Origin: Thiomonas sp. FB-6
GTDB lineage: Bacteria; Pseudomonadota; Gammaproteobacteria; Burkholderiales; Burkholderiaceae_C
DNA: 64,000 nt
Reading direction: 5' to 3'
Assembly (NCBI RefSeq): GCF_000377645.1
Contig: NZ_KB898474.1
Coordinates: forward strand, 62,001 to 126,000
The stretch's first letter is position 1; each line of letters begins with the position of its first letter. The translations under genes were made by a program, and so were the position numbers. Below the pieces are notes generated by a model that saw only the letters and a program-made list of their open reading frames with translations, made no database searches and was not told the DNA's origin. Positions 20,084 through 37,790 of the stretch are shown piece by piece.

Positions 20084-20932
20084 ATGTCCCCCGCACCCGC
20101 AGCGCCGAGGCTGTCCATCCGCCGCGCCCACGAGGCGCCTTCCGGCGACGACGGCTACCGCGTGCTGGTGGACCGGCTGTGGCCGCGCGGGCTGCGGCGC
20201 GAGCAGGTGGCCGCCGATCTGTGGCTGAAGGACATCGCGCCCTCCACCGAACTGCGCCGGTGGTTCGGCCACGATCCCGCCAGGTGGGCGCAGTTCGTCG
20301 AGCGTTACCGCGCGGAACTCGACGCCAACCCGGCGGCGGTGCGGCGCCTGCGGGCGCTGTTGCGCGCGCACGGGCGCCTGACCCTGGTGTACGCGGCGCA
20401 CGACCCGGTGCACAACCATGCCGCCGCGCTGCTCGACTACCTGCACCAGCCCGCGACGGATCCGGACGAGCCCGTGGCGGCGCATGCCCCGCGCGCCGCC
20501 GCCGGCCTGCGCGAGCGCCTGCTGGGCGAGCATGCGCGCATCCTGTCGGGCCTCGACGATGCGCGCCTGGCCCTGCTGCGCGGCGACGCGGCGGGAGCGC
20601 GCGCGGCGCTGGACGCGCTGGCGGTCGTGCACGCCGAGCACGCGCGCCTGGAGGAGACGCTGCTGTTTGCGGCGCTGCCGCGCGCGGCACGCTGGCCGCG
20701 GCGCACCTACGAGGCCGAGCACGCGGCCCTGGCGCGGGCGCTGGGGGCCCTGCGCGACAGCCTGCGCGAGCTGCCCGCGCGCCTGCGCTCGCCGCGTCAG
20801 CGCCTGCAACTGGTCGACTCCGCGCTGCCCTTGCGGCACCTGCTCGAGCACCACTTCGAGCGCGAGGAGAAGGGCTTGTTCGAGGAAGTCGACCTCAATC
20901 CAGACGAACCTGCCCGACCAGCCAGTCGGTGA
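20084..20932 (+). CDS. DUF488-hemerythrin-like fusion protein
   Basis: A 282-residue protein with two parts. Residues 1-120 are a DUF488 domain (SIRRAHEAPSGDDGYRVLVD, LWPRGL, LKDIAPS, LRRWFGHDPARW, TLVYAAHD). Residues 140-275 are helical and carry spaced His/Glu residues (L-G-E-H-A-R-I-L, V-V-H-A-E-H-A-R-L-E-E-T, E-A-E-H-A-A-L, L-L-E-H-H-F-E-R-E-E) arranged as in the HHE/hemerythrin cation-binding domain, which holds a di-iron site. DUF488 proteins are normally about 120 residues and free-standing. The 3' end overlaps the convergent cyclase gene by 38 bp. An oxygen or NO sensing role is inference. Confidence 0.76.
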   Translation: MSPAPAAPRLSIRRAHEAPSGDDGYRVLVDRLWPRGLRREQVAADLWLKDIAPSTELRRWFGHDPARWAQFVERYRAELDANPAAVRRLRALLRAHGRLTLVYAAHDPVHNHAAALLDYLHQPATDPDEPVAAHAPRAAAGLRERLLGEHARILSGLDDARLALLRGDAAGARAALDALAVVHAEHARLEETLLFAALPRAARWPRRTYEAEHAALARALGALRDSLRELPARLRSPRQRLQLVDSALPLRHLLEHHFEREEKGLFEEVDLNPDEPARPASR

Positions 20933-23900
20933 GCAGCGCGGCGTGGCGTTCGGGCTCGCGGCCCTCGGCCAGGGCGGCCTGCCAGCGCAGGGCCTGTGCG
21001 GCGGTCTCCCCCCGCTCTCGCAGGTAGTCGCGCAGGCGCTCGTCGTCGCTCGCGGCGCGTGCGCCGGCCACGTGCAGGCCGCGCCAATGCTGCGCCAGCG
21101 CGCCCAGCGCGGTGCGGATGGCGCCATCGCCCGAGCTGCGCGCGCAGGACGCAAGCCAGGGCAGCAGGGTGTCCGCGGGCATGGGGCGGGCGAGGCCGTA
21201 GCCCTGGCCGTAGGTGGCGCCCAGCAGCCTGGCGGCCTCGATCATGCCCTCGTCCTCCAGCCCCTCGACGACCACCGTGCGCTCGAAGTCCTTGCCGATC
21301 TGGATCGCGCTGTGGATCAGGCTGAGCGTGCGCACCGGATCCTCGCGGATGCGTACCAGCAGGCTCTGGTCCACCTTGACCGTGTCGAAGGGAAGCGAGG
21401 CCAGGCGCTGCAGGTTGCTGTAGCCCGAGCCGAAATCGTCCATCGACAGACGCACGCCGATTTCCGTCAGGCGCCGGATCGCGAGGTCCTGCACCTGGGA
21501 TTCGATGTCCTGCGACTCCAGCAGTTCCAGGGTCAGGCGCCGCGGCTCGATGCGGTGCTTGTGCAGGGCCTGCTCCACCCAGTGGGGGCAGGCGGGGTCG
21601 AGCAAGGTGCCGGGCGCGATGTTCACCGCCACCTCGATGGCCAGCCCGGCCGCGTCCCAGGCCACGAGCGAGGCCAGCGCGAGGTCGAGCCCGGCGCGGA
21701 ACAGGCGGTCCAGCTCGGCGGTTCCCAGCAGCGGCAGGAACTCGCCGGGCCCGACGATGCTGCCGTCGCTCATCACCAGCCTGGCCAGGGCCTCCACGCG
21801 GGCCAGCGCGCCGCTGGCCAGCTCGACCACCGGCTGCACGTCCATGCGCAGCCCGCCGGCGCTGAACAGCCGGTCGCGGTAGGCGGTGGCCACCCGGGCG
21901 GGTACCGCGTTCAGCGCCGGGGCCCTGCAGCGCAGCCACAGCGAGGTCCAGCGCTGCTGCAGGCCGACCGCGAACTGGCGCATCCAGTCGCTCTCGAACT
22001 GGTTCAGGCGCGCACCCAGCAGGCGCACCACCGCCACCGTGTGGCCCGCCGCCGACAGCACCGGGAAGGCCATGGCGCTGCGCACGCCGAGCCCGAGCAC
22101 GGCCTGCGCCCACGAGGCGTCCTCGTCGTTGGCGTAGGCCGTGCGGTAGGAGGCCAGGGTGGCGATGGTCTCGGTGCGCCAGGCCCGCACCACCATGGTC
22201 TGGACCTCCACCGGCGCATCGCCGCCCGCCGGGGAATAGCGGTGATCCAGCACGATGGCGCGAATGGCCGGGCTCTGCGGGCCGGCATCGGCCTCGAGCT
22301 GGAACACGCCTCCCGAGTCCAGGCGGAAGCAGGCGGCGGAGACGATTCCCGGCAGCGCCCCCAGGCGTTCGATCTCCTCGCGCATCGCGTCGATCCACAG
22401 CGTCCCCGGCGGCGGCAGGGTGTGCGCGAGAATGCCCATGTAGTCCGCCACGGCCTGCTGGCTGGCGCGAAGCTGGGCATGCAGGTCGTCCTGCAGGCGG
22501 GACTCGACGATGGCCAGCAGGTGGTGGCGCTCGCGCGGCGGCATCAGCGTGCGCCCCAGGCGCTCCCCCAGCAGGTTGCGATAGCTCATCTGGCTTTGCG
22601 CGAGCCAGGCACCGCTGACGCCGGCCAGGGCATGGGCGACCCCCAGCGCAGCGCCGGTGCTGCGCACCAGTTCCTCGGTGGTGTCCGGGTGCAGCAGCAG
22701 GCGCACGTGCGCGCGCTGGCGCTTTTTCAGCTCGGCGAGTTCCCCTGCGTCGAGCACCGCCAGCAGCGCCTGCATGTCCGGATTCTGGTTGAGGTTCGCG
22801 TAGAAGCTCTCGACGAAGTCCCATTCGACGACTTCCAGGTGCAGCTGGGCCCCCGCGAGCAGCGTGCGCGCCTGGGCGCCGTAGGGGTCGAGCGCCGGCA
22901 CCGCGGGGCCCTGCGCGTCGGACGCGGTGTGCGCGCGCCACCACAGGCCCTCCGATTTGTACTGCTTGGTCAGGTACATCGCGGCGTCGGCCTGGCGCAG
23001 CAGGGCATCGGCGTCGCTGCCGTCGTCCGGGCACAGCGCGATGCCCGCGCTCAGCCCGATGGTCACGGGGGGAATGGAGTCGAACTCGAAGGGCCGCTCG
23101 ACCGCGCCGTGCAGGCGCTTGAGCGCGGCGGCCACGCTGTCCAGCGGGCGCAGGGCGTCGAGGTCCTCGATGACCACCACGAACTCGTCGCCGCCCATGC
23201 GCGCCAGGAAGTCCTGCGCCCTGAGCAGGCCGGACAGGCGCCGCGCCACCTCCACCAGCAGGCGGTCGCCGGCCACGTGGCCCCAGGTGTCGTTGACCGG
23301 CTTGAAGTCGTTGAGGTCCATCATGCCCACCGCCAGCGAGCGGCCGTGGCGCGTGGTGCGCGCGATCGCCGAGTTCAGGTGCTGGGTGAGCGCCAGGCGA
23401 TTGGGCAGGCCGGTGAGCGAGTCGTGCAGGGCCGCGTGGCGCAGGCGCTCCTCGGTGCGCTTGGACTCCGTGATGTCCAACGCGGTGCCGACCGCGCGTT
23501 TCGCGCTGCCGTCGGCCAGGCGTTCGACCACGCGCCCCGCGCAGCGCAGCCAGCGCCAGGCCTCGTCGCCGTCGCGAATGCGGAACTCCGCGTGGAACCC
23601 GGCCTCGCCACCCTCCAGCGCCTGCGCTGCCAGCCTGCGCACGCGGCCCAGGTCGTGCGGATGCACGGCAAGCTCCAGATCCGCCACCGCCACGCCGCCC
23701 GGCTCCAGCAACTTTGCGGGCAGGCGTGTCGCGCTCTCCTCGAGACGCAGCAGGGCGTGTTCGGCGTCGTAGTCCCACAGGCTCAGGTCGGAGGCGCTGA
23801 TCGCCGTGGCCAGGCGTGCGTTGACCAGCGCCAGGCGATCGGCGGCTTCGCGTGCCGCGCGCTCCGCCTCATAGCGTTCGCTCAGGTCGGTGTAGGAACA

Positions 23901-25523
23901 GACGAAGCCGCGCACGTCGCCGTGAGCATCCCGCAGCACGTTCAGCGAGATCAGCACGGGGAACACGCGTCCGCTGCGCGAGCGCCGCAGCACCTCGCCG
24001 CGGAAGGAACCCGCGGCCACGGCCTCGCGCACCAGGGCATCGGCCGAGCGCCCGGGATCGCCCTGCGGCGGCTGCAGCGCCTCGGGGCCCTGGCCGATGA
24101 TTTCCTCGGCGCTGAATTCGAACAGCCGGGTGAAGGCGGGATTGACGAAGCGGTACTGCAGGTCGGGCCCGGTGATGGCGAAGGCGTCCCGGGTCTGGCG
24201 CAGCGCCTGGTCGAACAGGCGCAACTCCGACAACGCATGGAGTTCCTCGCGCAGGCGCCGGTTCTCCAGCGCCGCGGAGGCCGAACGGGACAACTCCCGG
24301 CCCAGCACCAGCACCGACACGCTGGCGTTGTTGTAGCGGCTGACGCCGTCGTCGGCGACGCCGCCCTCGCCGAAACTGCAAAAGCCCGCCAGAGCCGCCT
24401 GCGGGGCCAGGCGCGCCATGTGGGCGATCTCCGCCGCGGCCTCCTGCTCGCCGAGGATCGAGGAGCGGATCGCGCAGTCGTGCACCAGCACCAGCGCCGG
24501 GCTGCTGGTGGCCGCGCGCAGCAGCGCCTTGCGCAGGGCCTGCGATCCGGCTTCGCGCGTGGCCTCGCTCGGGCTCATCAGGTACAGCGGGGCTCCTGGC
24601 GCGACCGGCTGGGTCAGCAGCACGCCATCGCGCTCGGTGGCGTAGCTGGCCACGTTGATCGAATACTGTTCCAGCGGGTCGCGCGTGCCCAGCACGGCGC
24701 GCGTGCTCCGCGTGATGTGCTGGCCGCGCAGGCCTTGCGCGGGCCGGCCCAGGCGCCGCGCCAGCGCCGGCAGCGCGGGTTCGCCGTCCAGCGAGAGCAG
24801 CTCCCGGCCGGTGCTCCCCGTCACGGCAAGGGCTTGCGGGGAGGGCTGGAAACCGTGGCTCATGCCGATGCCGAAGCTGAGTTCGGTTTCGAACACGGCC
24901 ACCAGCAGCCCGTCGGCATGCACGGAGCTCCCGTGGAACACGGCGTTGCCCTGCATGTTCCAGTCGTCGGCGCTGGCGCCGGCGATGAGCGCGACGCTGC
25001 CCAGGGTGCGCAGCTTGAAGGCCTCGACGATCTCGTAGCCGGGGGACGGGTGGCGGCGCGTGTTGCCGGGCACGAGCAGCAGCGCGAACAGCTGGGATCC
25101 GCGCTCGGCGCGCGCGCGCACGAGTTCCTCGTCGGGGTCCAGCGCGGCGCGCAGTTCGGGGGCCGCCAGCGCCTGGTCCAGGGCTTCGCGCCAGTTCGCG
25201 GCGGCGTCGTCCCCCACGCCCACGCTGCAGCGCAGGTGGGGGGAGGCGAGCGCGGTGACCACCACGCTGCCGCGGTGGATCCCCCCGTCGATCTCCCCGC
25301 AGGTGCTCGCGCCGATCAGTACCGGATCGGGGAATACCTCGCGCACGCCGGCGAGCACGCCGGCCAGGTCATGCTGCACCGAAGCGTGCACCAGCAGCAC
25401 CGAGGCCGGGTGCACGCGCAGCCCCGCCAGGCTGGCGCGGGCCGCGTCCGTGCCGGCCGCGGAGCCCGCCCCGCGGCCCACCGCCACTTCGATCCGTGCC
25501 GCCCCGGATGGGTCTTCGACCAT
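20895..25523 (-). CDS. Giant FIST-PAS-PAS-GGDEF-globin-GAF-EAL protein
   Basis: A 1542-residue soluble protein. In order: FIST_N/FIST_C sensor (about 35-410; SASTCGEI-type GASTCGEIDGG at 71-81), PAS (435-550), PAS/PAC (565-690), GGDEF (695-865; intact GGDEF at 777-781), a globin-sensor-like segment (880-1030), GAF-like (1035-1240) and EAL (1260-1490). In the globin segment F907-Y908 matches the B10 Tyr position and H964 the proximal His position. The EAL domain keeps VEAL, VNIAP, LELLES, MDDFGSG, VKVD, VEGLE and YGQG, so both c-di-GMP synthesis and breakdown are plausible. The tail lacks the His/Cys set of its neighbour. Start ATG 25523 has a weak ribosome site. It follows the paralogue by 71 bp. 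Confidence 0.84.
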   Translation of the reverse strand: MVEDPSGAARIEVAVGRGAGSAAGTDAARASLAGLRVHPASVLLVHASVQHDLAGVLAGVREVFPDPVLIGASTCGEIDGGIHRGSVVVTALASPHLRCSVGVGDDAAANWREALDQALAAPELRAALDPDEELVRARAERGSQLFALLLVPGNTRRHPSPGYEIVEAFKLRTLGSVALIAGASADDWNMQGNAVFHGSSVHADGLLVAVFETELSFGIGMSHGFQPSPQALAVTGSTGRELLSLDGEPALPALARRLGRPAQGLRGQHITRSTRAVLGTRDPLEQYSINVASYATERDGVLLTQPVAPGAPLYLMSPSEATREAGSQALRKALLRAATSSPALVLVHDCAIRSSILGEQEAAAEIAHMARLAPQAALAGFCSFGEGGVADDGVSRYNNASVSVLVLGRELSRSASAALENRRLREELHALSELRLFDQALRQTRDAFAITGPDLQYRFVNPAFTRLFEFSAEEIIGQGPEALQPPQGDPGRSADALVREAVAAGSFRGEVLRRSRSGRVFPVLISLNVLRDAHGDVRGFVCSYTDLSERYEAERAAREAADRLALVNARLATAISASDLSLWDYDAEHALLRLEESATRLPAKLLEPGGVAVADLELAVHPHDLGRVRRLAAQALEGGEAGFHAEFRIRDGDEAWRWLRCAGRVVERLADGSAKRAVGTALDITESKRTEERLRHAALHDSLTGLPNRLALTQHLNSAIARTTRHGRSLAVGMMDLNDFKPVNDTWGHVAGDRLLVEVARRLSGLLRAQDFLARMGGDEFVVVIEDLDALRPLDSVAAALKRLHGAVERPFEFDSIPPVTIGLSAGIALCPDDGSDADALLRQADAAMYLTKQYKSEGLWWRAHTASDAQGPAVPALDPYGAQARTLLAGAQLHLEVVEWDFVESFYANLNQNPDMQALLAVLDAGELAELKKRQRAHVRLLLHPDTTEELVRSTGAALGVAHALAGVSGAWLAQSQMSYRNLLGERLGRTLMPPRERHHLLAIVESRLQDDLHAQLRASQQAVADYMGILAHTLPPPGTLWIDAMREEIERLGALPGIVSAACFRLDSGGVFQLEADAGPQSPAIRAIVLDHRYSPAGGDAPVEVQTMVVRAWRTETIATLASYRTAYANDEDASWAQAVLGLGVRSAMAFPVLSAAGHTVAVVRLLGARLNQFESDWMRQFAVGLQQRWTSLWLRCRAPALNAVPARVATAYRDRLFSAGGLRMDVQPVVELASGALARVEALARLVMSDGSIVGPGEFLPLLGTAELDRLFRAGLDLALASLVAWDAAGLAIEVAVNIAPGTLLDPACPHWVEQALHKHRIEPRRLTLELLESQDIESQVQDLAIRRLTEIGVRLSMDDFGSGYSNLQRLASLPFDTVKVDQSLLVRIREDPVRTLSLIHSAIQIGKDFERTVVVEGLEDEGMIEAARLLGATYGQGYGLARPMPADTLLPWLASCARSSGDGAIRTALGALAQHWRGLHVAGARAASDDERLRDYLRERGETAAQALRWQAALAEGREPERHAALLTDWLVGQVRLD

Positions 25524-25594
25524 GGTTTGCCGACGCCGACTGGCCACTGGATGCACCGCAGCGTATCGCGAATCCGCGCCGCCGTGCAGGAGGT

Positions 25595-28500
25595 TTACCG
25601 CATGCCGGCCGCGGCGCGCACCCGCTCGACCAGCCAGGCCGTGAGCTGGTCGCCCGCGGCCTTGCGCTCGGCGGTGTCGGGCCCGCCGTGCACCCGGGCG
25701 TGCCAGGCGGCGGCCTCGCGCGCGTCCTCGCCCAGGCCGGCGAGGAAGTGCGTGAGCGGGCAATTCGCGATGGAGGCTTCGCGGTGGGGTTGCTCCTCGT
25801 GCATGGACAGCCAGTGGAAGGCCAGCGCGCCGAGCGGGCTGGAAATCGCCGCGGCCGCCGGGCCCGCGCCCGGCCGCCGCGCATAGGCGGCCGCCCAGGC
25901 CGCCAGCTCGGGGGCGGGCAGCGGGCGCGCGATGCCGAAGCCCTGGCCGTAGCGCGCGCCGAGCAGGGTGGCGGCTTCCTGCACGGCCGCCGTCTCCACG
26001 CCCTCGACCACCACTTCCTTCTCGAAATCGCGGCCGATCTGCACCACCGTGCGCATCAGGCTCAACGCCTTCACGGGGTCGCGGTCGATGTCGAGCAGGA
26101 TGCTGCGGTCCACCTTGACCACGTCGAAAGGCATGCTGGCCAGGCGCTTGAGGCTGCTGAAACCCGAGCCCAGGTCGTCGATGGCCAGGCGCACGCCCAC
26201 GCGCCGCAGCGTGGCTACCGCCTCATCGCGTACCGATTCGTCCACTTCCTGCGATTCCAGCAATTCCAGCGTCAGGTGGCGCGCCGCGATCGAATGCGCG
26301 CGCAGCGCGTCCTCGATCCACACGGCGCACTGCGGGTTGAGCATGGTCGACGGCGGCAGGTTCAAGGAAAGGTCCAGTTCGAGCCCCTGGGCGTGCCAGG
26401 TGGACAGCCACTGCAGGCTTTGCACCAGCCCGAGCCGGAACAGGCTATCCAGGTCGGCCTCGCGCAGGGCGGCCAGGAAATGCGCCGGGCTCAGGATCTC
26501 GCCTTCGGGCGAGGCCAGCCGCGCCAGGGCTTCCACCTTGACCAGTCGCCCGTCGCGCAGGTCCACGATGGGTTGCACGAACATGCGCAGGCCGTCCGCG
26601 TACAGCCACTGGCGAACCAGCGCCGCGTCGTGCGGATCGATGCTCGGCAGCCCGCGGCGCATCAGGTCGTCGATCAGGTTCCAGCGGTTCTGCACCGCCG
26701 TCACGAAGGTGCGCCCCTGCACGGTGTCGAACTGATTCGGGTAGGCGCCGTAGAGCACCATCACCGCATCGGTCTGGCCGGCGCGCATCAGCGGGATGGC
26801 CGCCACGCTGTGGATGCCCAGCGCACGCGCCGAGTCGCGCCAGGTGGCCAGGCCCGGCTCGGCCTCCAGGCTGCGCGCCGTCATGATGGAATCGCTGCGC
26901 CAGGCCAGCGCCGCCATGCCCATGCCGGTGGGCTGGTTGAAGTCCAGGGCCATCTGCAGGCCCGGGGCGGTCAGGGATCGGGCCAGCTCGACGGCGCGGC
27001 CTCCCTCGCAGGCGACCAGCTCGAACAGGCCCTGCGCTCCCGGCCGCAGCATGGCGCAGCCGACGATGCCGGGCAGGCCGGCCAGCGCGCGAAGCTTGGA
27101 CGGTGCGATCCCGCGCGGGTCGGCGGCTGCCCGGGTCAGGGGGTGCGCCAGGTAGGCGCTGTAGGCGTTCTGCACCTCGAGCATGGCGTCGAGCTGCGCC
27201 TGCAGGTCGATCTGGATGCGCGCGCCCAGGATGCGCTGCAGGCGGTTGCGCTGGCGCGCCGACAGTTCCGCGGCATCGAGGTGCCAGTGCAGCAGGTCGC
27301 GGTAGAACTGCATGGAGGCGCTCAGCCACGACGGCGCGACCCCCACCAGCGCGTGCACCATGCCGAGATGGCGCGTGCGAGTCTGGATGCGCACGGCCGT
27401 CGCCTGGGCCTCCAGCATCGACCGCAGGTGCTGCGCCAGGCTGGTCTTGAGCCGGCGCAGGCGCTGCTCGCCGAAGCTGGCAAGAATCGCGGCCTGCTCG
27501 CCGTGGGAGGCGATCTCCGCGAAAAAGCCTTCGGCGAATTCCTGTTCGACCCGTTCGACCAGAGGAGCCACGCGCTCGAGCAGGGCCTGGGCCTCGGTGG
27601 AAAAGGGGTCGAAGGCCGGCTCGGGGACTTCGTCGTCGGGGCCGGAGCCGGCGCGCGCCCACCACTGGGTGCGCCCGGCCTTGCGCACCTTGATGCGGTA
27701 CATCGCGGCGTCGGCCAGGCGCAGCAGGGCGTCCGCGCTGGCGCCGTCGGCCGGCCCCAGCGCCACGCCCATGCTCATGCCCAGCGTCGCCGCGCGTCCC
27801 GCGCCCAACTGGAAGGGCGCTTCCACCGCTTCATGCACGCGGGCCAGGATGCCGGCCAGCTGTTGCTCGGCGTGGTCGGGCTCCAGGTCCTCGATCACCA
27901 GCACGAACTCGTCCCCGCCCAGGCGCGCGACCATGTCCGAGGCGCGCGCCAGGGCGCGCAGGCGCTCGCCCAGCTGGCGCAGCAGCGCGTCGCCGATCTC
28001 GTGCCCCCAGCGGTCGTTGACCGGCTTGAAGTCGTCCAGGTCGATGAGGCCGACGGCGAGCGCGGTGCCCATGCGGACGGCGCGCGCCACCGAGCGCTCG
28101 AGGTGGAAGTCCAACGCCCTGCGGTTGGGCAGCCCGGTCAGGGGATCGGCCTGGCTCAGGCGCTCGAGCTGGCGCAGCAGCCGCTGGTGCTCGGTCACGT
28201 CCACCACGGTCCACACCACGTCGGTGCAGCCCTCCACGTCGGAGTCCATGCGCCGTCCCGACACCGAGATGCTGGCGGGTTTTCCGTCCAGGCGCACGAT
28301 GTCCAGCGCCTCCAGGTGCACGCGCCCCTGCTTGAGCACCTGCTGCGCGGCCGCGACCATCGCGTCCTGCGCCATCACCGGCGCCGCGTCGCCCACGGTC
28401 ATGCCGATGACCGAGCGCAGATCCGGCGCGCCGAAGATGCGCGCGATGGCCGCATTGGCCTCGACCACCACGGCGCCCGGATGACGCACCAGCGCGATGC

Positions 28501-29620
28501 CGGCCACCGAGTTGTCCAGCACGCTGGCGCGCTGACGCTGCAGCTGCGCCTGGGCCCGCAGCACGTCCAGGCGGTCGAGCCCCTTGGAGACGTCGGCCGC
28601 GAGTTCCTGCACGGCGTGGCGCATGTCCGGATCGAAGGTCCCGGGCTCGGTGCTGTACAGCTGCAGCAGCGCCCACACCTTGCCGGCGCGGCGCAGCGGC
28701 ACGCTGGCCGCCGCATGCAGGCCGAAGCGCTGCAGGCGCTCGCGCCAGGGGCGCGAGCTCGGGGTGGTGGCGCTCAGCGCGGTGAACTCCGCGCGGCCCT
28801 CGTGCCAGGCCGCGGCCGCGCTGCCCTGGCCGCCGGGCAGTGCCGGGTCGGTGGCGATCGCGAGTCCGTCCAGGTAACCCAGGGGTTCGCCTTGGGCCGC
28901 CAGCGCGTGGAACCTGCCGGTGGTGTCCGGGCGGGCGATCCAGGCCAGCGCGATGGCCGGCTCGGACGCGGCGATGCGGCACACCTCGCGCAACAGCTCG
29001 GGGACCTCGGTCGCGCGCACGATGGCCTGGTTCACATGCGCCTGCACCGTGCGCAAGCGGGCCAGCCGGGCGCTCTGCGCCAGCAGCGCCTCGCGGCTGC
29101 GCAGCAGGCGCCCGATGAGCACGGCGCCCAGCGCGAACAGCGCGAGCAGGGCGCTGCGCGCCGGCAGGCGCCAGGCCATGTCGCGTCCATACAGCTCCCG
29201 CACCCTGAGTTCCGGCCAGCCCACGTTGACCGTCAGGGGCAGGCCCATCAAGGGTTCGCGTACTTGCCGCGACGTGCCGGGGCCTGCACCCGCTGGATGG
29301 ACCCTGACCTGCCAGCCCGCGGCCGGCGCCGGGGCGAGCAGCTCGGGATGGCGCAACGCGAAGGCTTGAAGCCGCGCGGGGAGCGAGGCCGTGTCCGGCC
29401 CCGACGAGTTGGCGCCCGACATGGCGTCCAGCAGGCGCAACTCGATGCGCTGGCCTTCCCGCACGGCCAGCCGGCGCGCCTGGGCCTGCACCTGCAGGCG
29501 CGCACGCTGGTATTCCAGGCGTTCCTGGTTGCCGAACCAGACCACGACCAGTCCGACCGGGATCCACAAGGCGGCCTGCAGCAGCCAGCGGCGCAGGGCC
29601 AGGCGGCTCATGCGCTGCAT
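25595..29620 (-). CDS. Giant membrane-bound GAF-PAS-GGDEF-globin-GAF-EAL protein
   Basis: A 1341-residue paralogue of the downstream giant. Two transmembrane helices (about 13-29 and 153-171) flank a 120-residue periplasmic sensor. Then GAF (195-345), PAS (365-478), GGDEF (485-650; intact GGDEF at 568-572), globin-like segment (670-825), GAF-like (840-1010) and EAL (1030-1270) with VEAL, LNLPP, LELLES, IDDLGSG, VKVD, VEGVE and YGQG all present. The globin segment has H756 in the proximal position but Phe700 where the neighbour has Tyr. The last 65 residues have an H-W...H...C-P-L-T-H-F-L...H-A-R-V-H pattern like a divergent CZB zinc domain. ATG 29620 or 29611 may be the start. It diverges from nirB across a 447-bp region. 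Confidence 0.84.
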   Translation of the reverse strand: MQRMSRLALRRWLLQAALWIPVGLVVVWFGNQERLEYQRARLQVQAQARRLAVREGQRIELRLLDAMSGANSSGPDTASLPARLQAFALRHPELLAPAPAAGWQVRVHPAGAGPGTSRQVREPLMGLPLTVNVGWPELRVRELYGRDMAWRLPARSALLALFALGAVLIGRLLRSREALLAQSARLARLRTVQAHVNQAIVRATEVPELLREVCRIAASEPAIALAWIARPDTTGRFHALAAQGEPLGYLDGLAIATDPALPGGQGSAAAAWHEGRAEFTALSATTPSSRPWRERLQRFGLHAAASVPLRRAGKVWALLQLYSTEPGTFDPDMRHAVQELAADVSKGLDRLDVLRAQAQLQRQRASVLDNSVAGIALVRHPGAVVVEANAAIARIFGAPDLRSVIGMTVGDAAPVMAQDAMVAAAQQVLKQGRVHLEALDIVRLDGKPASISVSGRRMDSDVEGCTDVVWTVVDVTEHQRLLRQLERLSQADPLTGLPNRRALDFHLERSVARAVRMGTALAVGLIDLDDFKPVNDRWGHEIGDALLRQLGERLRALARASDMVARLGGDEFVLVIEDLEPDHAEQQLAGILARVHEAVEAPFQLGAGRAATLGMSMGVALGPADGASADALLRLADAAMYRIKVRKAGRTQWWARAGSGPDDEVPEPAFDPFSTEAQALLERVAPLVERVEQEFAEGFFAEIASHGEQAAILASFGEQRLRRLKTSLAQHLRSMLEAQATAVRIQTRTRHLGMVHALVGVAPSWLSASMQFYRDLLHWHLDAAELSARQRNRLQRILGARIQIDLQAQLDAMLEVQNAYSAYLAHPLTRAAADPRGIAPSKLRALAGLPGIVGCAMLRPGAQGLFELVACEGGRAVELARSLTAPGLQMALDFNQPTGMGMAALAWRSDSIMTARSLEAEPGLATWRDSARALGIHSVAAIPLMRAGQTDAVMVLYGAYPNQFDTVQGRTFVTAVQNRWNLIDDLMRRGLPSIDPHDAALVRQWLYADGLRMFVQPIVDLRDGRLVKVEALARLASPEGEILSPAHFLAALREADLDSLFRLGLVQSLQWLSTWHAQGLELDLSLNLPPSTMLNPQCAVWIEDALRAHSIAARHLTLELLESQEVDESVRDEAVATLRRVGVRLAIDDLGSGFSSLKRLASMPFDVVKVDRSILLDIDRDPVKALSLMRTVVQIGRDFEKEVVVEGVETAAVQEAATLLGARYGQGFGIARPLPAPELAAWAAAYARRPGAGPAAAAISSPLGALAFHWLSMHEEQPHREASIANCPLTHFLAGLGEDAREAAAWHARVHGGPDTAERKAAGDQLTAWLVERVRAAAGMR

Positions 29621-29819
29621 GTTCGGAACTCGGTCTCGCGGGGAACGGGACGATGCATGGCTTCGTGCGGCGATGCTTGCATTTGTAAATCAATCGCCTT
29701 GTCGCCGGTGTGCCCCGCGATAAAAATCGGCGCTGAGCGTGACAAATCTCACAAGGTTCCGCTCCCATCCAAGCGGCTGAACGAAATTCGCCACGCCTCG
29801 CCCGTTCCCGGGGCGATCC

Positions 29820-29836
29820 TGCACCGCTGCCGTGCG
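29820..29836 (+). promoter_or_regulatory. NtrC-like enhancer dyad
   Basis: TGCACCGCTGCCGTGCG fits GCAC-N7-GTGC, the core of the NtrC upstream activating sequence (TGCACC-N5-GGTGCA); the left half is perfect and the right half matches GTGC. It lies about 80 bp upstream of the sigma-54 promoter, a typical enhancer distance. A second, wider-spaced GCACC/GGTGC pair (29841-29857) follows. Confidence 0.6.
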
Positions 29837-29900
29837 CGCGGCACCCCATGGCGGTGCACGGCGGGCATGCGCCGCAGCGCGCGCCCCCCGGTGCCGGGGC

Positions 29901-29916
29901 TGGCACGCCGATTGCT
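29901..29916 (+). promoter_or_regulatory. Sigma-54 promoter of the nir-nas operon
   Basis: TGGCACGCCGATTGCT matches the consensus TGGCACG-N4-TTGCW at every defined base. The GG (29902-29903) and GC (29914-29915) are exactly 10 bp apart, as RpoN requires. Transcription would begin about 12 nt downstream of the GC, near 29927, giving a leader of roughly 140 nt before nirB. Together with the NtrC-like dyad this predicts nitrogen-limited expression. Confidence 0.78.
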
Positions 29917-29949
29917 GGTCGGGTACCGGGCGGGCCAACGGCGGCCGGC

Positions 29950-29963
29950 CCGTGCAGTCACGG
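29950..29963 (+). promoter_or_regulatory. Leader hairpin 1 (candidate NasT/ANTAR target)
   Basis: CCGT pairs with ACGG around the six-base loop GCAGTC (or CCGTG/CACGG with loop CAGT). Flanking CCGG repeats (29945-29948 and 29965-29968) can extend the stem. It begins about 20 nt from the predicted transcript start. Confidence 0.52.
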
Positions 29964-29966
29964 TCC

Positions 29967-29984
29967 GGGCGCGAAGCCGCGCCC
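29967..29984 (+). promoter_or_regulatory. Leader hairpin 2 (candidate NasT/ANTAR target)
   Basis: GGGCGC pairs perfectly with GCGCCC around the six-base loop GAAGCC, three bases after hairpin 1. The two loops share the pattern GNAGNC. Paired hairpins with hexanucleotide loops ahead of a terminator are the known target of ANTAR proteins such as NasR/NasT. Confidence 0.55.
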
Positions 29985-30000
29985 CGGCCCAGGCAACGAC

Positions 30001-30045
30001 GCCTTCGCGAACTCCGCAACCGGAGCTCGCGGAGGCTTTTTTTTT
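30001..30045 (+). terminator. Intrinsic terminator in the nir-nas leader
   Basis: A 16-bp stem (GCCTTCGCGAACTCCG with CGGAGCTCGCGGAGGC; one wobble and one mismatch) has a CAAC loop and nine T residues directly after. It ends 22 nt before the nirB ATG and downstream of a perfect sigma-54 promoter, so it must be bypassed for nirB expression. It is therefore an attenuator. Confidence 0.85.
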
Positions 30046-30067
30046 GTTCCGCATCCGGCGTCATCGC

Positions 30068-32500
30068 ATGAAACCCAGACTCGTCCTCGTGGGCAACGGC
30101 ATGGCCGGGGTACGCACCCTGGAAGAGTTGCTCAGGCTCGCCCCCGGCATGTACGACATCACCGTGTTCGGCGCCGAGCCCTACCCGAACTACAACCGCA
30201 TCCTGCTCTCGCCGGTGCTGGCCGGAGAGCAGACGGTCGAGCAGATCGTGCTCAATCCCCGCGCCTGGTACGAGGAGCACGGGGTCACGCTGCACACCGG
30301 GGCCACCGTGGTCGACGTCGACAGGCGCCGGCGCGTGGTGCGGGCGGCGGACGGGCGTGAAGCGCCCTACGACCGGCTGCTGCTGGCCACGGGTTCGCGC
30401 TCCTTCGTGCTGCCGGTGCCGGGGCACCAGCTCGACGGTGTGCTCGGCTACCGCGACATCGCCGACACGCAGGCCATGATCGACGCGGCCGCGCGCCATG
30501 TCCACGCGGTGGTCATCGGCGGCGGACTGCTGGGCCTGGAGGCGGCCAACGGCCTGATGCTGCGCGGCATGCAGGTGACGGTGGTGCACCTGATGCCCTG
30601 GCTGATGGAACGCCAGCTGGACGAGAGCGCCGCGGGCCTGCTTCGCGCCAGCCTGGAGCAGCGCGGGCTGCGCCTGCTGACGGGAGCGCGTACCCGCGCG
30701 CTGCTGGCCGGGCCTTCGGGCCGCGTGCGCGCCGTGCAGCTCGACGACGGTGCGGAGATCCCCGCCGACCTGGTGGTGATGGCCGCCGGCATCCGCCCCG
30801 AGACCGCACTGGCCGAGCGCATCGGCCTGCACTGCCGCAACGGCGTCGTGGTCGACGACACGCTGCAGACCGTCACCGACCCGCGCATCTACGCGGTGGG
30901 CGAATGCGCCGCGCACCGCGGCACCAGCTACGGCCTGGTCGCGCCGCTGTTCGAGCAGGCCAAGGTCTGCGCCACGCACCTGGCCTGCTTCGGCATCGGG
31001 CGCTACGCCGGCTCGGCGGTGTCGGCCAAGCTCAAGGTCACGGGCATCGACCTGTTCTCCGCCGGCGAATTCATGGGCGGCCCGGGTAGCGAGGACATCG
31101 TGCTCGCGGACCCGGGAGCAGGGGTCTACAAGAAACTGGTGCTGCGCGACGACCGGCTGGTCGGTGCCTGCCTGTACGGCGACACCGTGGACGCGGCCTG
31201 GTACTTCAAGCTCATGCGCGAGGCGCGCCCGGTGGGCGCGTTGCGCGAGCGCCTGATGTTCGGCGAGTCGGGGCTGGGCGACGCCGGCCACCAGGGGCAG
31301 AGCAAGGCCCTGGCCCTGGCCGACGACGCCGAGGTCTGCGGCTGCAACGGCGTGTGCAAGGGCGCCATCGTGCGGGCCATCAAGGAGCAGGGCCTGTTCA
31401 CGCTGGAGGAGGTGCGCAGGCACACCAAGGCCAGCGCCAGCTGCGGGTCCTGCACCGGGCTGGTCGAGCAGATCCTCATGTTCACGGCCGGCGGCGACTA
31501 CTCGGCGGCGCCCAGGGCGAAGGCCCTGTGCGCCTGCACCGACGCCACCCACCAGCAGGTGCGCGACGCCATCCGCGAGCAGCACCTGCTGGCCGTGGAT
31601 GCCGTGATGCGCTTCCTGGAATGGCGCACGCCCAACGGCTGCGCCAGCTGCCGCCCGGCCATCAACTACTACCTGCTGTCGACCTGGCCGCGCGAGGCGG
31701 CCGACGACCCGCAGAGCCGTTTCATCAACGAACGCGCCCACGCCAACATCCAGAAGGACGGCAGCTTCAGCGTGGTGCCGCGCATGTGGGGCGGCGAGAC
31801 CAGCGCGGCCGAGCTGCGGCGCATCGCCGACGTGGTCGAGCGCTACGCCATTCCCTCGGTGAAGGTGACCGGCGGGCAGCGCATCGACCTGCTGGGCGTG
31901 CGCAAGCAGGACCTGCCCGCCGTGTGGAAGGACCTGGGCATGCCCAGCGGCCACGCCTACGCCAAGGCGCTGCGCACGGTGAAGACCTGCGTGGGCAGCC
32001 AGTGGTGCCGCTTCGGCACCCAGGACAGCACGCGGATGGGGCAGCAGCTCGAGCGCGCGCTGTGGCGCATGGTCGCGCCGCACAAGGTCAAGCTCGCGGT
32101 GTCGGGCTGCCCGCGCAATTGCGCCGAGTCGGGGATCAAGGACGTCGGGGTGATCGGCGTCGAGTCGGGCTGGGAGATCTACGTCGCCGGCAACGGCGGC
32201 ATCAAGACCGAGGTCGCGCAGTTCCTGGTGAAAGTGGCCACCCACGAGCAGGTGATCGAGCACGCCGGCGCCTTCCTGCAGTTGTACCGCGAGGAGGGCT
32301 GGTACCTGGAGCGCACGGTGCACTACGTGGCGCGCGTGGGCCTGGAACACGTGCGACGCCGCGTGGTCGACGACGCGGCCGGCCGCCAGGAGTTGTGGGA
32401 ACGCCTGCAGTTCGCGCTGGCCGACCTGCCCGACCCCTGGCATGAACCCGAACGGGCCGCCGTGGACACGCGCCAGTTCCTTCCCCTGCTTCCCACATGA
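30068..32500 (+). CDS. nirB: Assimilatory nitrite reductase [NAD(P)H] large subunit NirB
   Basis: An 810-residue cytoplasmic enzyme reducing nitrite to ammonium with six electrons. Order: FAD/NAD(P)H-binding pyridine-nucleotide oxidoreductase (1-300; VLVGNGMAGVRT and VVIGGGLLGLEAA), two BFD-like [2Fe-2S] modules (C-G-C-N-G-V-C-K...C-G-S-C, and C-A-C-T...C-A-S-C), then ferredoxin-like and sirohaem-[4Fe-4S] domains with cluster ligands in CVGSQWC and SGCPRNC. Length is normal. No obvious ribosome site lies between the attenuator T-run and the ATG, which is itself unusual. First gene of nirB-nirD-nasA-cobA-transporter. Confidence 0.95.
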   Translation: MKPRLVLVGNGMAGVRTLEELLRLAPGMYDITVFGAEPYPNYNRILLSPVLAGEQTVEQIVLNPRAWYEEHGVTLHTGATVVDVDRRRRVVRAADGREAPYDRLLLATGSRSFVLPVPGHQLDGVLGYRDIADTQAMIDAAARHVHAVVIGGGLLGLEAANGLMLRGMQVTVVHLMPWLMERQLDESAAGLLRASLEQRGLRLLTGARTRALLAGPSGRVRAVQLDDGAEIPADLVVMAAGIRPETALAERIGLHCRNGVVVDDTLQTVTDPRIYAVGECAAHRGTSYGLVAPLFEQAKVCATHLACFGIGRYAGSAVSAKLKVTGIDLFSAGEFMGGPGSEDIVLADPGAGVYKKLVLRDDRLVGACLYGDTVDAAWYFKLMREARPVGALRERLMFGESGLGDAGHQGQSKALALADDAEVCGCNGVCKGAIVRAIKEQGLFTLEEVRRHTKASASCGSCTGLVEQILMFTAGGDYSAAPRAKALCACTDATHQQVRDAIREQHLLAVDAVMRFLEWRTPNGCASCRPAINYYLLSTWPREAADDPQSRFINERAHANIQKDGSFSVVPRMWGGETSAAELRRIADVVERYAIPSVKVTGGQRIDLLGVRKQDLPAVWKDLGMPSGHAYAKALRTVKTCVGSQWCRFGTQDSTRMGQQLERALWRMVAPHKVKLAVSGCPRNCAESGIKDVGVIGVESGWEIYVAGNGGIKTEVAQFLVKVATHEQVIEHAGAFLQLYREEGWYLERTVHYVARVGLEHVRRRVVDDAAGRQELWERLQFALADLPDPWHEPERAAVDTRQFLPLLPT

Positions 32501-32880
32501 GGCCCGCCATGGATGCCTGGACCGAGATTTGCCGCGTCGACGAGTTGCCGCGCCTGGGTGCGCGCACGCTGCGGCGCCCCCATGGGGGCGACATCGCCGT
32601 GTTCCGCACCGAAGGCGACGAGGTGTTCGCGCTGCTCGACCGCTGCCCGCACAAGGGCGGTCCGCTGTCGCAGGGCCTGGTGTTCGGGCGCGCCGTGGCC
32701 TGCCCGCTGCACAACTGGACCGTGGCGCTGGACAGCGGCTGCGCCGTCGCGCCCGACCACGGCTGCACGCCGGCCTTCGAGGTGCGCGTGGAGCAGGGGC
32801 GGGTGTACCTGCGCGCGCAGGCGCTGGCCGGCGGGGCCGGTACCTTGCCCGAGGCGGCGGGGAGCAGCGGCGATGTCTGA
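32497..32880 (+). CDS. nirD: Nitrite reductase small subunit NirD (Rieske type)
   Basis: A 127-residue Rieske-fold protein with C50-P-H52 and C69-P-L-H72, the two Cys and two His that would hold a [2Fe-2S] cluster (some NirD proteins lack them; here all four are present). It is the small partner of NirB. It overlaps nirB by four bases (ATGA at 32497); ATG 32509 is an alternative start. Its stop overlaps the nasA start by 8 bp, so translation is tightly coupled. Confidence 0.92.
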   Translation: MRPAMDAWTEICRVDELPRLGARTLRRPHGGDIAVFRTEGDEVFALLDRCPHKGGPLSQGLVFGRAVACPLHNWTVALDSGCAVAPDHGCTPAFEVRVEQGRVYLRAQALAGGAGTLPEAAGSSGDV

Positions 32881-35665
32881 GACCGCGTCCACCTGCCCCT
32901 ACTGCGGCGTGGGTTGCGGAGTGCTGATCGACGCCGAGGGCGGCGCGATCCGCGGTGTGCGCGGCGACCCCGCGCATCCGGCGAACCTCGGGCGCCTGTG
33001 CAGCAAGGGCGCCACGCTGCACCTGAGCGCGCAGCCGGGCGTGCTGGCCTCGGCTCGCGCGCTGCATCCGCGCATGCGCGCATCGCGCGAGGGCCCGATG
33101 CGGCGCGTGGGCTGGGACGAGGCCCTGGAACACCTGGCCGGCCGCTTCGCGGACATCGTCGCCCGGCACGGGCCGGACGCCGTCGGCTTCTACGTCTCGG
33201 GTCAGTTGCTGACCGAGGACTATTACGTGTTCAACAAGCTGGCCAAGGGACTGATCGGCACCAACAACATCGACACCAACTCGCGCCTGTGCATGTCCAG
33301 CGCGGTGGCCGCCTACAAGCGAGCGCTGGGCGCGGACGCGCCGCCCCCCTGCTACGAGGACCTCGACGCGGCGGACTGCCTGTTCATCGCGGGCTCCAAC
33401 ACCGCCTGGGCGCACCCCATCCTGTTCCGGCGCATCGAGCAGGCGCGGCGCGAGCGCCCGCAGCTGAAGATCGTGGTCGTCGACCCGCGGCGCACCGAGA
33501 CCGCGGAAATCGCCGACCTGCACCTGGCGCTGCAGCCGGGCACCGACGTGGCCCTGTTCCACGGCATGCTGCACGCGATGCTGTGGGACGGCCTGGTCGA
33601 TACCGCGTACATCGCGCGCCACACCGCGGGCTTCGAGGCCCTGCGCGAGGCCGTGCGGCCCTTCACGCCGGCCTTCGCGGCCCAGCTGTGCGGGCTGCGC
33701 GAACAGGACGTGGTGCAGGCGGCCCGCTGGTTCGCCGGCTTGCGTGACGACGGCGGCCGCGGCGCGACGCTCTCGCTGTACTGCCAGGGGCTCAACCAAT
33801 CCAGCGCCGGCACTGACAAGAACCTGGCGCTGCTCAACCTGCACCTGGCCTGCGGGCAGATCGGACGCGAAGGCGCCGGCCCGCTGTCGCTGACCGGGCA
33901 GCCCAACGCCATGGGCGGCCGCGAGGTGGGCGGCATGGCCAATCTGCTCAGCGGCCATCGCGATCTCGCGAACGCCGGCGACCGCGCGGAGGTCGCCGCC
34001 TTGTGGGGCGTGGACCAGGTGCCCGCGCAGCCGGGCCTGACGGCGGTGGACATGTTCCGCGCCGCGGCGCAGGGACGGCTCAAGGCGCTGTGGATCGCCT
34101 GCACCAATCCACTGCAGTCGCTGCCCAACGCGGCCCTGGTGCGCGAGGCCCTGCAGCGCGCGGAACTGGTGGTCGTGCAGGAGGCCTTCGAGCACACCGC
34201 CAGCGCCGGCTACGCGCACGTGCTGCTGCCGGCCGCCAGCTGGGGCGAGAAGCAGGGCACGGTGACCAATTCCGAGCGCCGCATCTCGCGCGTGCGCGCC
34301 GCGGTGGCGCCGCCCGGGCAGGCGCGCGCGGACTGGGAGATCGCCGCCGATTTCGGGCGCCGCCTGGAAGCGCGCATGCGCCCGGGCCGGGCGTCGATGT
34401 TCGCGTGGCCGGATGCCCGCGCGGTGTGGAACGAACACCGCGAGAGCACGCGCGGGCGCGATCTGGACATCACCGGGCTGAGCTGGGATCTGCTGGAGCG
34501 CGAGGGGCCGCAACAGTGGCCCTTCCCGACGGGGGCCGCACGCGGCCGCCAGCGCCTGTACGCGGACGGCCGCTTCGCCACGCCCGACGCGCGCGCCCGC
34601 CTGTGCGCGGTGGAGTACCGGCCGGTGGCCGAGGCACGCGACGCGCGCTTCCCCTTCGCGCTGAACACGGGGCGGCTGCGCGACCAATGGCACGGCATGA
34701 GCCGCAGCGGCAGCGTGCCGCGCCTGTTCGCCCACCGGCCCGCGCCCAGCGTGGACCTGCACCCCGGCGACATGGCGCGCCGCGGCCTGGCCGAAGGGGA
34801 TCTGGTGCGCCTGAGCTCGCGCCGCGGCACGCAGGTGCTGCCGGCGCGCGCCGACCCCGGGCTGGCGCCGGGACAGGCCTTCGTCGCCATGCACTGGGGC
34901 CCCGAATACCTGGGCGGCACGGCCGGCAACGGCAAGCCGACGCTGGGGGTCAACGGCCTCACGCTGGACGTGCTGGACCCGGTGTCGCGCCAGCCCGAGC
35001 TCAAGCACGCGGCGGTCAAGGTGTTGCGGGCCGAGCTGCCGTGGCGCCTGTGCGCCTTCGGCTGGCTGGAGCAGGGCGGCGAAGCGCCGCTGCGCCGCGC
35101 CTTGATGGATGCGCTGCGCGGCCTGGACTACCTGAGCTGCGTGCCCTTCGGGCGCGAGCGCTGCGGACTGGCGCTGCATGCGGCGGGCCACGAGCCGCCC
35201 GACGAGGCCAGCCTGCGCTTCGTGGCCGGGGTCTTCGGCCTGGACGCGCCGCAGGTGCTGCGCTACCGCGACAGCCGCACCCGCGATGAACGCCGTGTGC
35301 TGCTGCGGGGCGATGCGCTGCACGCGGTGCTGCTGTGCGGCGGCCCCGGCGCGGTCGCCGCCGAGGCCTGGTTGCGCGAACTGCTGGAATCGCAGGCCCC
35401 CGCACGGACCCTGGGGCGCCTGCTGCTGGCGCCGGGCGCTCGCGCGCCGCTGCCCGCGGCTGGCGCGCGAGGCGCCCAGGTGTGCAACTGCCTCGACGTG
35501 CGCGCCGGCGACATCGCGCGTGAACTCGCGGCTTCGACAGGGGATGCCGCCGACAGGCTGGCGGCGCTGCAGCGCCGCCTGGGCTGCGGCACGCAGTGCG
35601 GTTCCTGCCTGCCCACGCTGCGGCGCATGGCCGCCGAGGCTTCGTCCCTCGGGGTCCCGGCATGA
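32873..35665 (+). CDS. nasA: Assimilatory nitrate reductase catalytic subunit
   Basis: A 930-residue cytoplasmic molybdoenzyme of the Nas/NapA type, reducing nitrate to nitrite. The N-terminus has C-P-Y-C-G-V-G-C and L-C-S-K-G, the four-Cys [4Fe-4S] site. The bis-MGD-binding domains show T-N-N-I-D-T-N-S-R-L-C-M-S-S, where the Cys is the expected Mo ligand, then G-Q-P-N-A-M-G-G-R-E-V-G-G and the C-terminal molybdopterin domain (LNTGRLRDQWHGMSRSG). A final BFD-like module (C-N-C-L-D...C-G-T-Q-C-G-S-C) adds a [2Fe-2S] site. No Tat signal is present. It overlaps nirD by 8 bp and cobA by 4 bp. Confidence 0.94.
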   Translation: MSETASTCPYCGVGCGVLIDAEGGAIRGVRGDPAHPANLGRLCSKGATLHLSAQPGVLASARALHPRMRASREGPMRRVGWDEALEHLAGRFADIVARHGPDAVGFYVSGQLLTEDYYVFNKLAKGLIGTNNIDTNSRLCMSSAVAAYKRALGADAPPPCYEDLDAADCLFIAGSNTAWAHPILFRRIEQARRERPQLKIVVVDPRRTETAEIADLHLALQPGTDVALFHGMLHAMLWDGLVDTAYIARHTAGFEALREAVRPFTPAFAAQLCGLREQDVVQAARWFAGLRDDGGRGATLSLYCQGLNQSSAGTDKNLALLNLHLACGQIGREGAGPLSLTGQPNAMGGREVGGMANLLSGHRDLANAGDRAEVAALWGVDQVPAQPGLTAVDMFRAAAQGRLKALWIACTNPLQSLPNAALVREALQRAELVVVQEAFEHTASAGYAHVLLPAASWGEKQGTVTNSERRISRVRAAVAPPGQARADWEIAADFGRRLEARMRPGRASMFAWPDARAVWNEHRESTRGRDLDITGLSWDLLEREGPQQWPFPTGAARGRQRLYADGRFATPDARARLCAVEYRPVAEARDARFPFALNTGRLRDQWHGMSRSGSVPRLFAHRPAPSVDLHPGDMARRGLAEGDLVRLSSRRGTQVLPARADPGLAPGQAFVAMHWGPEYLGGTAGNGKPTLGVNGLTLDVLDPVSRQPELKHAAVKVLRAELPWRLCAFGWLEQGGEAPLRRALMDALRGLDYLSCVPFGRERCGLALHAAGHEPPDEASLRFVAGVFGLDAPQVLRYRDSRTRDERRVLLRGDALHAVLLCGGPGAVAAEAWLRELLESQAPARTLGRLLLAPGARAPLPAAGARGAQVCNCLDVRAGDIARELAASTGDAADRLAALQRRLGCGTQCGSCLPTLRRMAAEASSLGVPA

Positions 35666-36597
35666 ACCCGGGCCCGGGCACGAAGCCAGGCGCGAAGCCC
35701 AGGCCGCGGGTGCTGCTGGTGGGGGCCGGGCCAGGCGACCCCGAGCTGCTCACCGTGAAAGCCGTGCGGGCGATCCGCCAGGCCACGGTGATCCTGGTCG
35801 ACGATCTCGTGGCGCCCGCCTGCCTGCGCCTGGCGCGCCGCGCCTGCCGCATCGTGCAGGTGGGCAAGCGCGGCGGCTGCGCCAGCACGCCGCAGGACTT
35901 CATCCAGCGCCTGATGGTCGTCGAGGCGCTGCGCGGCGAACGCGTGGTGCGGCTCAAGGGCGGCGATCCCTCGGTGTTCGGGCGCGCGGGCGAGGAACTG
36001 GCCTGCCTGCGCGCCGCCGGCATCGAGGTGGACATCGTGCCGGGGATCACCGCGGGCCTGGCCGCGGCGGCGGCCGCCGGCGCCTCGCTCACGCACCGCG
36101 AGCACAGCCACGGCGTGGCGCTGGTGGCCGGACACACCGCGGCCGACAGTCCCGTGGACTGGGCCTCGCTGGTGCGCTCGCGCATGACCCTGGTGGTCTA
36201 CATGGGGGTGTCGGCGGCCGCGTCCATCCGGCGCGAACTGCTGGCCGCGGGCCTGGAGCCAGGCACGCCGGTGCTGCTCATGCATGCCGTGGCAAGCGCC
36301 TCGCAGCGACGCGTCGACAGCAGCCTGGGCAGGCTGGAGGCCGACCTGCGCGCCGCCGGCCTGGCCAGCCCCTGCGTGATGCTCATCGGCCGCGCGCTGG
36401 GCGCCGATGCGCAGGGCCTGGCCGCATCCCCTTCCCGTCCTGCTTCTTCCCCCTCGCTTCAGGAGAACGCGTCATGCAGACCCCTTCGATTCGCGGCAGT
36501 TCCCGCCGGGCCCTGTTCGGCGCCACCGTCGGATTCTTCATCGGCTTCGGCGCCGTCTCGCTGTTCGGCCCCACGGCGCAGAGTTTCGTCAAGCTGA
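35662..36597 (+). CDS. cobA: Uroporphyrinogen-III C-methyltransferase, with 3' overlap into the transporter
   Basis: A 311-residue SUMT that makes precorrin-2 for the sirohaem of NirB. Motifs are LLVGAGPGDPELLTVKAV, VGKRGG, VRLKGGDPSVFGRAGEE, VVPGITAGLAAAAAAG-like DIVPGITAG and VVYMGV. The conserved domain ends near residue 255 (MLIGRALG). The reading frame then continues about 55 residues of Ser/Pro-rich sequence with no homologue character, reaching TGA at 36597, 124 bp inside the next gene. A lost stop is likely. The start ATG overlaps the nasA stop (ATGA). Confidence 0.9.
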   Translation: MNPGPGTKPGAKPRPRVLLVGAGPGDPELLTVKAVRAIRQATVILVDDLVAPACLRLARRACRIVQVGKRGGCASTPQDFIQRLMVVEALRGERVVRLKGGDPSVFGRAGEELACLRAAGIEVDIVPGITAGLAAAAAAGASLTHREHSHGVALVAGHTAADSPVDWASLVRSRMTLVVYMGVSAAASIRRELLAAGLEPGTPVLLMHAVASASQRRVDSSLGRLEADLRAAGLASPCVMLIGRALGADAQGLAASPSRPASSPSLQENASCRPLRFAAVPAGPCSAPPSDSSSASAPSRCSAPRRRVSSS

Positions 36598-37784: not shown

Positions 37785-37790
37785 CGCCCT

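Follow-up and report, generated by a model that had tools for sequence, protein, structure and literature searches.

Globin sensors that govern cyclic di-GMP (c-di-GMP) enzymes are described with the globin at the N terminus in the excerpted review PMC8846402 (the other papers cited below are likewise used in excerpt), and in the best-studied globin sensors the globin comes first and drives what follows. Here we analyze two neighboring genes of the mine-drainage bacterium Thiomonas sp. FB-6, termed A and B, in a 64,000-nucleotide window (the whole stretch of DNA analyzed; positions 62,001 to 126,000 of contig NZ_KB898474.1), whose products depart from this arrangement. In both proteins, sensors and a GGDEF domain precede a globin of the globin-coupled-sensor (GCS)/protoglobin fold type, which is followed by a GAF-like domain, an EAL domain, and a helical C-terminal domain. 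A globin between GGDEF and GAF-EAL, away from the usual N-terminal position, was the core of the original prediction made from the DNA alone. The inner position was recovered by Pfam in B, by a structure model and fold search in A, and by a family profile. The usual position agrees with the review (PMC8846402), and the stand-alone relatives of A and B demonstrate that in this family a globin can likewise form the N-terminal domain of the phosphodiesterase part. The domain order of A and B is real, conserved, and placed in a known sensor class, and it is apparently undescribed.

Both open reading frames (ORFs) lie on the minus strand at the coordinates first proposed, with B preceding A in the same direction and 71 bases between them, and they could form a single transcript. 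Protein B has 1341 amino acids in the ORF list. The longest mechanical ORF of A has 1622 amino acids from a TTG start at position 25763; the start is likely the ATG at codon 81 (position 25523), which gives 1542 amino acids and reproduces the earlier numbering, in which Tyr988 and His1044 of the ORF are Tyr908 and His964. Pfam identified FIST, FIST_C, two PAS, GGDEF, and EAL domains in A and GAF, PAS, GGDEF, Protoglobin, and EAL domains in B, and the GGDEF and EAL motifs are both intact within one chain in each protein. The N-terminal sensors differ as anticipated, with FIST/PAS in A and a membrane-type segment, GAF, and PAS in B. From just before GGDEF to the C terminus, the two proteins are 41% identical over 873 columns (E = 3e-168 in a single pairwise comparison), a sequence similarity far above chance. 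The GAF domain before EAL is weak in B (GAF_2, 26.0 bits against a cutoff of 28.6) and was assigned in A by homology to B, as no Pfam match was found there.

The globin segment of B scores 53.4 bits against Pfam Protoglobin (cutoff, 25 bits; E = 3.7e-14), while that of A scores 16.7 bits (E = 0.0076), below the cutoff. In phmmer searches of the PDB, the B globin matched HemAT (E = 2.5e-4) and, more weakly, DosC (E = 0.38), and the A segment alone had no match. The alignments place His756 of B opposite the HemAT His and opposite His98 of DosC, which is the heme ligand of that protein (PMC5549716). A profile of 77 family globins (A, B, and 75 of 84 others) matched Tlr1989 (E = 1e-6), GsGCS (2e-5), HemAT (2.9e-5), AfGcHK (0.0014), and an anti-anti-sigma factor (0.0034), and the His was aligned in 5 of the 5 printed alignments, that of the anti-anti-sigma factor included. 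Structure prediction had been proposed as a check, and the AlphaFold2 model of the A segment, built from a 77-row alignment, has a globin fold with a predicted local distance difference test score (pLDDT) of 90.5 and a predicted template modeling score (pTM) of 0.82. When this model was compared with the PDB by Foldseek, globin domains of Tlr1989, HemAT, AfGcHK, DosC, GsGCS, and BpeGReg filled rows 1 to 23 and an archaeal protoglobin row 24; the best E value was 1.4e-3 (probability, 1.00), with no row at E ≤ 0.001. All 50 rows listed by the Foldseek search with the B core were GGDEF-EAL or EAL structures, so that this search neither supports nor tests the B globin. From the profiles and the model, we regard the globin fold of both segments, as distinct from heme binding, as established for practical purposes.

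The FB-6 genome contains 46 GGDEF matches and 14 globin-profile matches, and globin-profile matches were present in all 28 of the 28 Thiomonas genomes, with 2 to 19 in each (E ≤ 1e-10; these counts and the 14 refer to globin segments, not whole proteins). Thirteen modules were read in the FB-6 genome. In nine of them (A, B, and seven more) a GGDEF domain precedes the globin, and the remaining four begin at the globin and lack GGDEF. A scan of a genome collection with named organisms found at least 80 loci, in Thiomonas, Acetobacter, Gluconacetobacter, Oleiagrimonas, Aquitalea, Acidiphilium, and Ferrimicrobium as well as in mine and sediment genomes, some of them labeled Actinomycetes; near-identical contigs of related genomes are included, so these counts are not independent. 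Among the 80 loci listed, 72 hold an ORF ordered GGDEF, globin, EAL; the remainder comprise six with only the form lacking GGDEF, one cut locus, and one without a globin ORF. The Ferrimicrobium copy breaks off ahead of any GGDEF, and some of the forms scored as lacking GGDEF lie at a contig end or have a long N-terminal portion outside the scan (e.g., L086 and L118). Domains at the loci were called with profiles built from the paralogues of this genome, and Pfam was applied to 48 cores and to individually scanned proteins. In these 48 cores (A, B, and 46 of 71 locus cores picked for length and nonredundancy), Pfam detected EAL in 48, GGDEF in 48, Protoglobin in 39 (E ≤ 0.01), and GAF_2 in 30, and the key residues of GGDEF and EAL are conserved in 43 to 48 of them. 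Pfam also placed Protoglobin above its cutoff between GGDEF and EAL in full proteins of Acetobacter garciniae, A. syzygii, and Oleiagrimonas citrea; it found no Protoglobin in the full protein of Gluconacetobacter sacchari and gave just 17.1 bits in that of Acidiphilium.

Across 398 sampled Pseudomonadota, a globin-plus-GAF profile matched at least 30 genomes (E ≤ 1e-8) and a globin-only profile at least 2 (E ≤ 1e-10), one of which is FB-6; both are lower bounds, as 5 or 8 candidates were scored per genome. The globin-plus-GAF matches listed outside FB-6 were weak and mostly in the GAF part. A plasmid search with a stand-alone cassette yielded mostly EAL matches among the 5000 records listed, one of which spans 80% or more of the query. 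In genome G014, two globin modules of equal score and equal frame length, found on opposite strands some 28 kb from each other (G014:C3 2564517 and 2592420), are perhaps a recent duplication.

A proximal-type His and a distal Tyr908 in A and Phe700 in B had been proposed from the two sequences, and these positions hold in the family alignment, the distal one being of the B10 type. The proximal residue (His964 in A, His756 in B) is His in 82, Leu in 10, Gln in 9, and Tyr in 3 of 104 family ORFs. Globin-coupled sensors have a polar distal residue, usually Tyr. The commonest distal residue here is Tyr (76/104), and the 13 modules read in this genome have His in 11 and distal Tyr in 8. Since the proximal His is missing from 22 of the 104 ORFs, part of the family may not bind heme, and from these substitutions some members have probably lost it.

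The computed fold class, domain order, spacing, spread, catalytic motifs, and His and Tyr/Phe positions place A and B in a family in which changing N-terminal sensors and GGDEF are followed by a unit of globin, GAF, EAL, and C-terminal domain. We lean toward the reading, drawn from sequence and models, that the globin of this family is a heme sensor controlling EAL. The second half of the chain would be a phosphodiesterase cassette, which is also found with no GGDEF before it. Its globin would bind heme as a sensor of the GCS type, with O2 as the likeliest ligand, and would act on the downstream EAL phosphodiesterase, rather than on GGDEF, with its long final helix and the GAF domain as the connection. 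The cyclase would answer to the sensors at the N terminus, FIST/PAS in A and membrane segment/GAF/PAS in B; with both enzymes active, one chain would have separate inputs for c-di-GMP synthesis and breakdown.

Four kinds of evidence suggest that the globin mainly serves EAL. In the 48 cores, the spacing between anchors is nearly fixed (globin to GAF, 46 to 50 residues; GAF to EAL, 49 to 55; GGDEF to globin, 26 to 33). Forms lacking GGDEF exist, namely, 4 of the 13 modules in this genome and a Caballeronia plasmid protein (globin-GAF-EAL). The sensors before GGDEF vary by member (FIST plus PAS, MASE1 plus GAF, GAF plus PAS, and others). In the model of the B core (864 residues, 478 to 1341; pLDDT, 89.1), confidence is low in the stretch joining GGDEF to the globin (pLDDT block, 56), and the final helix of the globin spans 38 residues and points to the GAF domain. 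Several observations weigh against the reading as a whole. With its pTM of 0.52, the B core model does not allow the domain arrangement to be read, and it has a second low-confidence loop (block, 56) between globin and GAF. The nearly fixed GGDEF-globin spacing fits coupling in that direction too. The forms lacking GGDEF fall in three groups of a midpoint-rooted tree, which does not settle whether they are ancestral or derived. Added to these are the subthreshold Protoglobin score of A, the Phe in place of Tyr at the distal position of B, and the 22 ORFs without the proximal His.

The nearly constant spacing along the whole core, GGDEF-globin included, and the joint conservation of the GGDEF and EAL motifs would also fit a central globin that controls both enzymes and toggles the chain between c-di-GMP synthesis and breakdown, in the manner reported for DcpG, with its O2-linked phosphodiesterase and NO-linked diguanylate cyclase activities (PMC10882959). 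We take this seriously and consider it unlikely, given that cassettes without GGDEF exist, that other kinds of sensors precede GGDEF in the members read, and that the GGDEF-globin link is of low confidence in the B model.

More doubtful is the idea that the globin fold is a heme-free dimerization or scaffold module and that gas sensing is gone in A and B. The Leu, Gln, or Tyr replacing the proximal His in 22 of the 104 ORFs, two of them in this genome, would agree with it, as would the distal Phe of B and the match of the family profile to an anti-anti-sigma factor. However, A and B both keep the His, as do 82 of the 104 ORFs, Tyr is the commonest distal residue (76/104), and the matched anti-anti-sigma factor itself has a His at this position. 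A helical bundle without relation to globins is a scarcely credible reading of the segment: the low Pfam score and missing phmmer match of A and the modest best Foldseek E value could be cited for it, but it was rejected on the fold list of the A model, made of globins only, and on the family-profile matches with their aligned His, to which the Pfam match of B is added.

Paralogues p50 (L050:1691-5881) and p51 (L051:2498-6586) of this genome have Gln for the proximal His with intact GGDEF motifs and are possible natural heme-free versions. The second ORFs of L125, L127, L128, L157, and L159 combine a weak-scoring GGDEF and a weak globin, with Leu for His, with a well-kept EAL, which suggests that cyclase and globin are decaying jointly in this subgroup. 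L132 is a contig from a genome labeled Bacillota; its GGDEF-globin-EAL protein, in which Leu replaces the His, would reflect a transfer or a binning error.

The tree comprises 101 rows with globin and EAL of sufficient length (quick search, LG+G4, midpoint root, several long branches flagged), and its support values are from the Shimodaira-Hasegawa-like approximate likelihood ratio test (SH-aLRT) only. A groups with five Thiomonas-group proteins (SH-aLRT, 100), and B groups with two others (100), a set that falls within a separate clade of 22 rows (99). The original prediction had derived A and B from duplication and sensor swapping; the two are paralogues, and they are not recent duplicates of each other. 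A recent tandem duplication was rejected on these separate, well-supported clades of the quick tree. The related genomes G019 and G027 each carry an A-kind and a B-kind protein next to each other.

A helical domain of about 85 amino acids follows EAL and was absent from the earlier reading. Its Cys is conserved in 32 of the 48 cores and its later two His in 30 and 28, and A has lost all three. The Cys/His motif of B is, from conservation and the model, a possible metal site resembling a zinc domain. The ligands of a CZB domain are three His and one Cys. Pfam CZB had no match in the C termini of B, L046, L047, L090, and L155 or among the families listed for the 48 cores, and it appeared in paralogue p53 only (E = 4.5e-4, below the cutoff). 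A C-terminal profile comparison gave a probability of 67 with a CZB region of Acidithiobacillus caldus and of 0.3 with p53, with no match in the PDB. The sequences are thus weakly suggestive of likeness to the CZB zinc domain, and the outcome for CZB membership is mostly negative.

The nitrite reductase operon next to B is present in the window, with NirB at positions 30068 to 32500, and gating by NO or oxygen had been read from it. NirB-type enzymes form ammonium, not NO. In both relatives examined (G019 and G027), the 17.5- to 29.75-kb stretch with A, B, and a DUF488-hemerythrin gene is kept at 80 to 83% identity, while the stretch from 29.75 to 39.78 kb with the nirB operon is missing from the site, the gene for a YddG-like exporter (position 39780) follows directly, and NirB is on another contig. 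The adjacency is therefore not a conserved feature of B-A in these two of two genomes, that reading of the neighborhood is not supported, and the link to nitrite reduction was rejected as evidence of NO sensing. The stretch itself (positions 29753 to 39779) encodes NirB, a nitrate-reductase-like molybdopterin oxidoreductase, a NarK-type transporter (below the cutoff), an NMT1_2 protein, and an ANTAR regulator. It was either inserted here or lost in the two relatives, where the region upstream of B abuts the exporter gene. On the other side, a DUF488-hemerythrin HHE fusion gene (positions 20084 to 20932, plus strand) shares 38 bases with the 3′ end of A and is kept next to A in both relatives. 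The features of A and B are listed in Table 1.

Table 1. Positions of genes A and B and of their predicted domains and residues in the window
Feature	Position	Strand	Basis
Protein B: membrane-type N terminus, GAF, PAS, GGDEF, globin, GAF, EAL, C-terminal domain	25595..29620	-	ORF, Pfam, model of residues 478-1341; N terminus by eye
Protein A: FIST, two PAS, GGDEF, globin, GAF, EAL, C-terminal domain	20895..25523	-	ORF, ATG start, Pfam; GAF by homology
B GGDEF domain, residues 490-647; GGDEF motif and RxxD intact	27680..28153	-	Pfam, motif reading
B sensor-type globin, about residues 675-825 (Protoglobin match 673-814)	27146..27598	-	Pfam E 3.7e-14; HemAT E 2.5e-4; model helices
B His756, proximal position (opposite DosC His98)	27353..27355	-	PDB sequence match, family alignment, family profile
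B Phe700, distal position (Tyr in most family members)	27521..27523	-	Family alignment
B GAF-like domain between globin and EAL, about residues 835-989	26654..27118	-	GAF_2 26.0 bits, below cutoff 28.6; model
B EAL domain, residues 1006-1233	25922..26605	-	Pfam, motifs
B C-terminal helical domain with Cys/His motif	25601..25915	-	Model, conservation; no Pfam family
A FIST N domain	24780..25400	-	Pfam; NosP model far below its cutoff
A FIST_C, after FIST N	24366-24776	-	Pfam
A GGDEF domain, ORF residues 778-936, motif intact	22956..23432	-	Pfam, motif reading
A sensor-type globin, ORF residues about 963-1111	22431..22877	-	Pfam 16.7 bits, below cutoff; model, fold search; family profile
A proximal-type His1044 of ORF (His964 from ATG)	22632..22634	-	Family alignment
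A distal-type Tyr988 of ORF (Tyr908 from ATG)	22800..22802	-	Family alignment
A EAL domain, ORF residues 1298-1527	21183..21872	-	Pfam, motifs

The high copy number in Thiomonas, 2 to 19 globin segments per genome, suggests that this arrangement is of importance to bacteria living in mine drainage. We tentatively propose that a gas-gated phosphodiesterase cassette (globin, GAF, EAL, and metal-site domain) was joined behind variously sensed cyclases and then multiplied in acid-loving bacteria, so that each cell would have as many as almost twenty single-chain switches, with c-di-GMP breakdown set by oxygen and its synthesis by another signal. Some members retain the proximal His and others lack it, and the same is true of GGDEF, so that the family provides natural comparisons.

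No description of the order GGDEF-globin-EAL was found in the open-access literature, most subscription journals being outside the search, and domain databases may well list this architecture. Among known proteins, A shares its FIST plus FIST_C N terminus with the FIST/NosP proteins; its score with the NCBIfam NosP model is 66.7 bits, below the cutoff of 450. DcpG of Paenibacillus dendritiformis has an N-terminal globin. Compared by description, it resembles A and B in having globin, GGDEF, and EAL in one chain (PMC10882959). In the Acidithiobacillia, 80 GGDEF-EAL proteins with Protoglobin were counted, and the Acidithiobacillus forms Protoglobin-GGDEF-EAL-CZB, GCS-GGDEF-EAL, and GCS-EAL share the domain set in other acidophiles, the first with a C-terminal CZB after EAL; they are written globin first, are set apart from A and B by description only, and may already include the A/B order uncommented (PMC6416229). 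An A. caldus plasmid protein that we read has GGDEF, EAL, and a weak CZB with no globin between them. DosC/DgcO, BpeGReg, PccGCS, and AvGReg have in common with A and B, by sequence and fold matches, a sensor-type globin with an aligned proximal His and a c-di-GMP enzyme, but their N-terminal globin drives GGDEF (PMC8846402, PMC12805831), whereas in A and B GGDEF lies upstream and EAL downstream of the globin. The proposed cassette finds a functional counterpart in GCS-HD-GYP of Vibrio fluvialis, in which a globin regulates a c-di-GMP phosphodiesterase; that protein has HD-GYP instead of EAL, an N-terminal globin, and neither cyclase nor GAF (PMC10882959).

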